Position numbers and translations under genes: made by a program
Assembly (NCBI GenBank): GCA_021373255.1
Contig: JAJFTD010000041.1
Span: 1 to 64,000, forward strand
Length of the DNA: 64,000 nucleotides
Source of the DNA: a bacterium
Lineage (GTDB): Bacteria > Armatimonadota > UBA5829
Direction of reading: 5' to 3'
Notes under the pieces: generated by a model
Database searches by the model: none
What the model was told of the DNA's origin: nothing
The model's input: the letters and a program-made list of their open reading frames with translations, nothing else
Shown: positions 59,286 through 61,499 of the stretch, one piece after another
How the letters are laid out: each line of letters starts with the position of its first letter
How positions within the stretch are numbered: the stretch's first letter is position 1

Positions 59286-60143
59286 ATGCATTCACAGCAA
59301 GTCGCAGTATCTCATCATCATCGCAACCATGGGTCATGGTTGGTTAATCTGCTCGTAATAGCTGGCATCGTCATAATTCTGGCCGCAGTGCTTCTCCCGA
59401 CATTCAAGCACAGTACCGGTTGCAACATGGGATCCAATTGCCAATCCAACCTCAAACAAATCGGCAACTCATTCAAGATGTACCTCTCGGATTGGAACGA
59501 CACATTCCCCACCAACAGGCGTTGGAACGGCAACGGGATAGTCTCCCACGTGCGTCTTACTACCCCCGATGCCCACGGCAATCCTCGAGTCAACGCCGAT
59601 GGCAAGCCAATAAGGTATGAGTTCGGTCCGAATTGGGTGGAGGCGCTGTATCCCTACGTAGAATCATTAACCAAGTCCACCGATGCAACCAGCGTGTGGA
59701 AATGCGTAGTTACCTGTGAGAAAAGCTATCCCGAGGACTCCAGAACAGCCGCCGTCACCTACGCATTCAACCGCAACCTGGTCGAGAAGAATGAGAAGAT
59801 CGTGAGGTCATCCGCCAACTTGATGATGGTCCGTGAGATGGACCGTATGGTTGACGCTGAACTGCGACCAACTAACAATTCCACCTGGACAAGCCGCAGA
59901 CCTCCGGTTTCGCCATTCCTCACCAGCCGAGACTGCCGGATCGGGCGCACCGAGGCCAATCTGCACGGCCACGGCTCGCATATACTCTTTGTCGATGGTC
60001 ATGTTAAGTTGATCTCGCTTAACTACACGTCGATGAAGCCGAAATATGACAATGTGCAGCGGCAGTGGTTCAATTTCTACAAAGTTAAACCTGCCAATAC
60101 TATCGAACGGACCCTCAACATGAGTATCGCTATCACTCCATAG
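59286..60143 (+). CDS. pilin-like secreted protein 1
   Basis: 285 residues. After a His-rich start (SHHHRNHGSWLV) comes one helix (NLLVIAGIVIILAAVLLPTF), then SNCQSNLKQIGNSFKMYLSDW, and near the end HGHGSHILFVDGHVKL. This copies the layout of DUF1559-like prepilins, but the GF(T/S)LIE cleavage motif is absent: the residue corresponding to Glu5 is not acidic. ATG follows GATGGGAGGAAC. It may be an anchored, uncleaved protein. The next gene is a paralogue. Confidence 0.75.
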   Translation: MHSQQVAVSHHHRNHGSWLVNLLVIAGIVIILAAVLLPTFKHSTGCNMGSNCQSNLKQIGNSFKMYLSDWNDTFPTNRRWNGNGIVSHVRLTTPDAHGNPRVNADGKPIRYEFGPNWVEALYPYVESLTKSTDATSVWKCVVTCEKSYPEDSRTAAVTYAFNRNLVEKNEKIVRSSANLMMVREMDRMVDAELRPTNNSTWTSRRPPVSPFLTSRDCRIGRTEANLHGHGSHILFVDGHVKLISLNYTSMKPKYDNVQRQWFNFYKVKPANTIERTLNMSIAITP

Positions 60144-60190: not shown

Positions 60191-60970
60191 ATGTATACCA
60201 AACAAAATGCAGTATCTCATCACTCTCGCCAGCGAGGTTCGTGGCTTATCAATGTAATTATCATTGTTTGTATTGTATTAGTCGTTGCCGCGATATTGTT
60301 GCCGACATTTCAACGCACTCACTGTTCTGCAAGAATGAGTGATTGTCAGAGCAACCTAAAAGAAATAGCAATCGCTCTGCAGATCTACTGGGGTGACTAT
60401 GATGCTACCTTGCCTTCATCTGCGCTGGTGAGCCATTCCAAGACCTGGAATCGTAATGACTTCAAAAAGTTCGCAACGATGAGGGGTGATCTTTCGCCAG
60501 TGAATCGTCCGCAGACATATACCCAGGTCCTTTACTGTTATATGAAGAACAATGACATCTTGTATTGCCCCAGCGATCTATCAGATCATTCAAAAGCCTC
60601 GTCCCAGGTTTCCTACTGGTGGAAATGTGCGATTGACAAGGCCTGGTATGGAGGCAAAGGTCGCAAACCTTGCCACATAGAGAAAGACTTCATGTATAAC
60701 GCTGACGAGATTGTCTTCTACGAGCGCTCCAGCTTCCACGAAGGCAATACGAGTGGCCTTAGAAATGGTGATCAGATCAATGTTGCCTATCTGGATACTC
60801 ACGTGAAGAGTATTGCTATCAAGAACGGCCCATCCCGCACCACTCAAGACCCAACAGCCCCGGGCGAGCCGATGCATTTCAACTATGACTTTAACTCGAA
60901 CAAGCCCGTAGTGGACAGCAGAGGCCGGGCCATAGGCCAAACCCCGGCTACTCAGGGGGATAAGCTCTGA
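60191..60970 (+). CDS. pilin-like secreted protein 2
   Basis: 259 residues, paralogue of the gene at 59286: SHHSRQRGSWLINVIIIVCIVLVVAAILLPTFQ, then SDCQSNLKEIAIALQIYWGDY and a VAYLDTHVK ending. It is preceded by the same ribosome site, GATGGGAGGAAC. Again no GF(T/S)LIE motif. The two genes probably form a tandem duplicate and act together. Confidence 0.72.
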   Translation: MYTKQNAVSHHSRQRGSWLINVIIIVCIVLVVAAILLPTFQRTHCSARMSDCQSNLKEIAIALQIYWGDYDATLPSSALVSHSKTWNRNDFKKFATMRGDLSPVNRPQTYTQVLYCYMKNNDILYCPSDLSDHSKASSQVSYWWKCAIDKAWYGGKGRKPCHIEKDFMYNADEIVFYERSSFHEGNTSGLRNGDQINVAYLDTHVKSIAIKNGPSRTTQDPTAPGEPMHFNYDFNSNKPVVDSRGRAIGQTPATQGDKL

Positions 60971-61015: not shown

Positions 61016-61024
61016 TGCTATAAT
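61016..61024 (+). promoter_or_regulatory. extended -10 promoter of the UGA-containing pair
   Basis: TGC immediately before TATAAT (61019-61024) is an extended -10 form; no clear -35 is seen. It lies 37 bases before the first ATG. Confidence 0.5.
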
Positions 61025-61060
61025 GAGTTACATTAAATAGCGCAACTGAGGTGGCTTATC

Positions 61061-61246
61061 ATGTGGTGGTGGATAGGCGGAGTCAGCGTTTGGGTTATCT
61101 CCGCTGTTTGAATATTCTCAGTGATGGCGGACGTGTTCCGCCGTAAGTGTTCCGCACTCAGCGGCCAGGCGATGTTTGGTTATCTGCTCCATGGCAGCAC
61201 AGCAGTCCTGTCGCTGTGGATGATTATGAGGGCATTAGGAGCGTGA
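61061..61246 (+). CDS. candidate small membrane selenoprotein 1 (in-frame UGA at 61109)
   Basis: ATG with GAGGTGG six bases upstream. The frame MWWWIGGVSVWVISAV-UGA-IFSVMADVF ... continues for 44 codons (CSALSGQAMFGYLLHGSTAV ... MRALGA) to a normal TGA stop. Two hydrophobic helices; UGA is codon 17, in the middle of helix 1. A hairpin 61126-61142 starts 14 bases after UGA with its loop 20 bases after it, fitting bacterial SECIS rules. Read as Sec it gives about 61 residues. Alternatives: UGA readthrough, UGA as Trp, or decay of a Trp codon. Reading across UGA is not certain. I know no matching family. Confidence 0.6.
61126..61142 (+). promoter_or_regulatory. candidate bacterial SECIS hairpin 1
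   Basis: GGCGGA pairs with TCCGCC, loop CGTGT; A24-T44 and T25-G43 extend the stem by two pairs. The loop begins 20 bases after the UGA at 61109-61111 and has G at its second position. Bacterial SECIS elements typically lie 16-37 bases from UGA to loop and have a G in the first two loop positions. Confidence 0.55.
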
Positions 61247-61250
61247 GGCT

Positions 61251-61445
61251 GTGAAAATACTTGGTGTCACACTTATTATATTCGGCATTATATGAGTGGT
61301 CTCGATCTTGGGAGGGGTCGCCTCCCATAAAGAGGGATTTACTACAATATCAGCGTTACTTCCCGGCTTTGCGTTCCACGCAGTCTGCATGGCCCTTGGT
61401 GCATTCTGTCTGGTAAAAGACCGCCAAAAGAGCAACTCCGACTAA
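61251..61445 (+). CDS. candidate small membrane selenoprotein 2 (in-frame UGA at 61293)
   Basis: GTG start with AGGAG nine bases upstream, 4 bases after the first gene's stop. The frame MKILGVTLIIFGII-UGA-VVSILGGVASHKE ... continues for 49 codons (ISALLPGFAFHAVCMALGAF ... NSD) to TAA. Two hydrophobic helices; UGA is codon 15, at the same position in helix 1 as in gene 1. A perfect 7-bp hairpin with loop GGTCG follows. Read as Sec it gives about 64 residues. Cys residues in helix 2 (HAVC and GAFC) could pair with a Sec. Family unknown. Confidence 0.6.
61309..61327 (+). promoter_or_regulatory. candidate bacterial SECIS hairpin 2
   Basis: TGGGAGG pairs perfectly with CCTCCCA; loop GGTCG. The loop begins 20 bases after the UGA at 61293-61295, exactly as in the first gene. 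GGTC resembles the GGUC loop of E. coli fdhF. Confidence 0.6.
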
Positions 61446-61458
61446 CCCCGTAAATACG

Positions 61459-61499
61459 CCGGAGACTTTAGGATCAACCATACCAAGGTCTCCGGTTTT
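61459..61499 (+). terminator. terminator of the UGA-containing pair
   Basis: CCGGAGAC (61459-61466) pairs with GTCTCCGG (61488-61495), loop of 21 bases, followed by TTTT. It ends the two-gene unit 13 bases after its last stop. Confidence 0.8.

Follow-up and report, generated by a model that had tools for sequence, protein, structure and literature searches.

The window, the whole stretch of 64,000 nucleotides that was analysed, contains two adjacent short reading frames (ORF1 and ORF2), each interrupted by a single in-frame UGA, which raises the question of whether these codons are lesions, functional stops, tryptophan codons or sites of selenocysteine (Sec, U) insertion. The preliminary description reported a single UGA as the only interruption of each frame, and the coordinates and translations agree with this statement (Table 1). 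When the UGA is read through, the ORF1 product is MWWWIGGVSVWVISAV-U-IFSVMADVFRRKCSALSGQAMFGYLLHGSTAVLSLWMIMRALGA and the ORF2 product, translated from its GTG start, is VKILGVTLIIFGII-U-VVSILGGVASHKEGFTTISALLPGFAFHAVCMALGAFCLVKDRQKSNSD. Neither frame contains a frameshift or any lesion other than its UGA. The gap of 4 bases between the frames and the ribosome binding sequences ahead of both starts are seen as described. The terminator that had been placed at the end of the unit was also confirmed, whereas the promoter stands only in its extended −10 element, for which the consensus promoter scan detected no good −35. The consensus scans missed the terminator on account of its loop, which exceeds 8 in length, and the promoter because its −35 is weak. 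Two tandem pseudopilin-like genes (59286–60143 and 60191–60970) are located just 5´ of the ORF pair, and their signal motif has diverged to GSWLVN / GSWLIN instead of GFTLIE. Where the window has other TGAs flanked on each side by coding-like sequence, these resembled gene junctions or shadow frames.

Table 1. Features of the ORF1–ORF2 unit; positions are those of the window.
Feature	Position	Strand	Description
Extended −10 promoter element	61016..61024	+	TGCTATAAT; perfect extended −10 in the sequence; putative promoter
ORF1 ribosome binding site	61048..61054	+	GAGGTGG in the sequence; Shine-Dalgarno-like
ORF1	61061..61246	+	61 residues when UGA 17 is read through; predicted membrane protein of two helices
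ORF1 in-frame UGA	61109..61111	+	codon 17; proposed selenocysteine
ORF1 SECIS-like hairpin	61124..61144	+	AUGGCGGA-CGUGU-UCCGCCGU; 8 bp; loop +21 to +25 after UGA
ORF2 ribosome binding region	61236..61248	+	AGGAGCGUGAGGC in the sequence, including AGGAG/GAGG
ORF2	61251..61445	+	GTG start; 64 residues when UGA 15 is read through; predicted membrane protein of two helices
ORF2 in-frame UGA	61293..61295	+	codon 15; proposed selenocysteine
ORF2 SECIS-like hairpin	61309..61327	+	UGGGAGG-GGUCG-CCUCCCA; 7 bp; loop +21 to +25 after UGA
Intrinsic terminator of the unit	61458..61499	+	11–12 bp stem, 10–15-nt loop, TTTT; −20.5 kcal/mol

Either read-through product contains two hydrophobic segments. Single-sequence AlphaFold predicted helical hairpins with helices at residues 2–33 and 38–60 of ORF1 and residues 3–27 and 33–63 of ORF2 (pLDDT 74), which supports, as a prediction, the earlier view of the products as two-helix membrane proteins. 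The codon-usage scores of ORF1 (0.069 bits per codon) and ORF2 (0.125 bits per codon) are within 1 SD of those of real gene pieces (0.17 ± 0.12; wrong frames, −0.18 ± 0.18), and no other frame of their own region scores higher, with ORF2 tied with one minus-strand frame. Synonymous choice alone carries nil coding signal (0.045 for ORF1 and −0.046 for ORF2). Codon usage backs the coding status of the two ORFs moderately at best. When the UGA residue is scored neutral, the highest-scoring local alignment between the ORF1 and ORF2 products extends almost end to end with U opposite U (shuffle p ~0.02), which suggests that ORF1 and ORF2 are probably tandem duplicates (paralogues). The UGA common to both would therefore be weak evidence of conservation, and the hairpins that follow the two UGAs may, for the same reason, not be fully independent.

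To search for homologues, the two products were used as queries, with Trp or Cys substituted at the UGA. No homologue was detected in 60 relatives or in 291 genomes of the phylum, and none that is credible in GTDB contigs (close relatives only), viral contigs, or plasmid or phage collections. Pfam, NCBIfam, PHROGs and PDB also returned nothing credible, which is consistent with the earlier remark that no known family matches. Since no homologue at all was found in these collections, neither with Trp nor with Cys or Sec at the UGA position, the usual Cys/Sec pair is lacking. The best match of a profile of both ORFs (E 4e-4) was located inside larger open frames and was taken as chance, and a likeness of ORF1 to PLDc_N that was noted by eye has no Pfam support. 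The LivH of the window shares 78–80% identity with the LivH of four congeners, which places the window in the same genus. In G001 and G004, the orthologous livH is preceded by other genes (G003 is partly visible). Judged from these comparisons, ORF1 and ORF2 may be restricted to the species or to very close relatives.

Two such frames could be decaying pseudogenes or chance open frames, in which Trp codons have changed to UGA and the hairpins are coincidental. This explanation is favored by the lack of homologues that would show conservation and by the modest codon signal, and Trp chemically suits both positions (AVWIFSV and IIWVVSI). Against decay, each frame carries exactly one lesion, which is in both cases a UGA and never a frameshift, and the Shine-Dalgarno sites, the start spacing and the terminator are intact. 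The hairpins bear on the same question. The geometry at both UGAs is identical, with a 14-nt spacer, a perfect 6-bp core and a 5-nt loop, and this exact geometry is found at only 4 of the 2,264 TGAs of the window. The published bSECIS model comprises a small loop on a stem of 4 bp or more, a 20-nt spacing and an MFE below −7.5 kcal/mol, with a G within the first two nucleotides of the loop followed by U (PMC13188914). Both hairpins satisfy all of these constraints (spacing 20; −13.9 kcal/mol for ORF1 and −17.2 kcal/mol for ORF2). The model alone is passed by 12% of random TGAs, and a sharper yardstick is therefore needed. When the proteins were held fixed, the hairpin was kept in 8.6% (ORF1) and 2.2% (ORF2) of synonymous recodings, and an MFE as low as observed was reached in 1.35% and 0.65%, respectively, which indicates that the hairpin signal is partly, but not wholly, written in the peptide. 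That the amino-acid sequences ease hairpin formation to this extent is a further point in favor of the pseudogene explanation.

The genome contains selA, selB, selC and selD, the presence of which the preliminary description had left to be established. selA scores 561 bits, two selB-like genes exceed the family cut-off, selD is fused to an AhpD-like domain, and the tRNA-Sec has the anticodon UCA. Contig C121 carries selA, selD and one selB together, with the tRNA-Sec nearby. Of 28 genomes in the class, 15 have a selA above the cut-off, among them three of the four congeners. The AhpD/CMD domain of the SelD fusion (L002:8303-9901) is C-terminal and has a CEPC motif. The second full-length SelB-like gene (L024:3282-5192, on G000:C194; 380 bits) is located on a small contig without selA or tRNA-Sec and may be a paralogue or bin contamination. 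A formate dehydrogenase selenoprotein was looked for in the genome and none was found. UGA might instead specify tryptophan in this organism or in an element that it carries, and Trp would suit the helix context of both codons. However, TGA ends more of the window's 49 long genes than either other stop codon does (21 TGA, 14 TAA and 14 TAG), which makes a Trp code unlikely; in addition, UGA is served by tRNA-Sec with selA, selB and selD, and decoding as Trp needs no downstream hairpin. We regard this explanation as extremely improbable.

A sharper yardstick is provided by the lineage itself. The window and neighbouring contigs of the same genome were scanned for in-frame TGAs with a hairpin, which revealed a third gene of this kind beside selA-selD-selB (L027:2549-5221, corresponding to G000:C121:54549-57221). 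This gene also adjoins a double-cubane-cluster reductase. Homologues of its C-terminal domain occur in G002, G005, G015, G016, G018 and G259. The TGA is at the same place in the homologues of G005, G015, G016, G018 and G259, and G280 has Cys (FGCGGVC). The family motif G[YF][TG]-U-GG-x-C, which has a few variants, lies within a C-terminal Ig-like domain. The L027 gene and its relatives thus constitute a conserved selenoprotein family. The Sec domain of the family lies outside all NCBIfam and Pfam models, and automated annotation would probably terminate the L027 gene at its UGA. All 12 family hairpins comprise 6 bp or more and carry G as the second of five loop nucleotides, and their loops start at +18, +21 or +24, that is, with whole-codon shifts. 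Across ten distinct sequences, pairing holds in 60 of 60 pair cells, and at three pairs both partners have changed; sliding the partners abolishes pairing. The ORF2 loop is identical to the loop of the G016 family member, and the ORF1 loop fits CGUGN, which is the commonest form in the family.

The SECIS scan covered 925 kb of the 4.19 Mb genome, where a geometry filter derived from the L027 family passes 30 of 32,462 TGAs (9.2e-4, 0.09%). Nine of 3,307 in-frame TGAs pass; of these nine, ORF1, ORF2 and the L027 gene alone are gene-like. Three others of the nine are copies of one repeat (L123:14012, L123:13235 and L133:4313), in which a TGA precedes a SECIS-like hairpin with the loop UGUUC in a frame that is not gene-like. 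The chance that two adjacent UGAs both pass is ~1e-6 if they are independent, for a geometry that was noticed in ORF1 and ORF2 first. This result weighs against coincidental hairpins, and we consider decaying or chance frames unlikely. The covariance model R2, a model of the family SECIS trained without ORF1 and ORF2, missed both ORF hairpins, and the covariance model R1 returned only its own training sequences over the whole genome. R2 probably missed them because a conserved Tyr is also encoded in the family stems, which are sequence-rich; the miss is a property of the coding sequence of the L027 family, not a defining feature of selenoproteins. The family and the two ORFs share SECIS geometry, loop sequences and genome. 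In contrast to the membrane ORFs, to which they have no sequence relation, the family members are large carboxypeptidase-regulatory/Ig-like proteins that look secreted and contain a UxxxC motif.

In general, a hairpin just 3´ of a stop codon can promote read-through. The hairpins might accordingly slow the ribosome for regulated read-through or attenuation that involves no Sec, with the peptides of 16 and 14 residues encoded ahead of the UGAs as the main products. The match of hairpin geometry and loop sequences to the SECIS of the lineage, together with the Sec machinery in the genome, argues against such a regulatory stop, and for two tandem genes arranged alike no further mechanism has to be assumed. 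We therefore consider it very unlikely.

We conclude that ORF1 and ORF2 most probably form a bicistronic operon of two predicted tandem, orphan, lineage-restricted small membrane selenoproteins. The proposal of a pair of new small membrane selenoproteins is thereby supported, as a prediction, by the Sec machinery and by the SECIS geometry of a conserved family of the lineage. The related proposal that the pattern exceeds chance decay is borne out by the hairpin statistics (the family-derived filter and the recoding draws) and by the single UGA lesion in each frame. According to established knowledge of Sec insertion, SelB carrying Sec-tRNA(Sec) would bind the hairpin loop (G22-U23), and Sec would then be inserted at each UGA. 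Each product would be a two-helix hairpin that carries Sec midway along helix 1; there, Sec could take part in intramembrane redox chemistry or bind a soft metal. The two proteins possibly act as a pair, and the expression of each would be selenium-dependent. A heteromeric membrane complex, in which the selenocysteines of the two first helices lie face to face and form an intramembrane diselenide or a soft-metal site, is a speculative and rather unlikely extension. No description of a paired-Sec membrane module was found in the literature examined.

MerT and MerF have thiols in transmembrane helix 1. A Sec-containing MerT-like mercuric transport protein (PF02411) with a C/SxxU motif is listed among selenoproteins (PMC9312934 and PMC13188914), and it resembles the ORF products as a small membrane protein with Sec. 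The resemblance is one of analogy, not of membership, since the MerT-like protein has three helices instead of two, the ORFs lack the C/SxxU motif, and neither product, with Trp read at the UGA, matches PF02411 in Pfam or shows sequence similarity to it. Likening the suggested redox or soft-metal function to that of Sec-containing MerT-like proteins is, in the same way, a matter of resemblance only. ORF1 and ORF2 share the in-frame UGA, the bSECIS-type hairpin and the Sec machinery of the genome with known bSECIS selenoproteins (PMC13188914). Unlike these, they yielded no Cys/Sec homologue in the searches, their proposed Sec is located inside a predicted transmembrane helix of a protein of 60 residues, and they are two tandem genes.

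ORF1 and ORF2 resemble no protein found in the searches and look like a new type of membrane selenoprotein, which, if the prediction is correct, would carry Sec within a membrane helix. It would also follow that the SECIS geometry of a given lineage can reveal small selenoproteins that have no homologues. Selenoproteins are usually predicted by Cys/Sec homology, and orphan small selenoproteins are therefore systematically missed.
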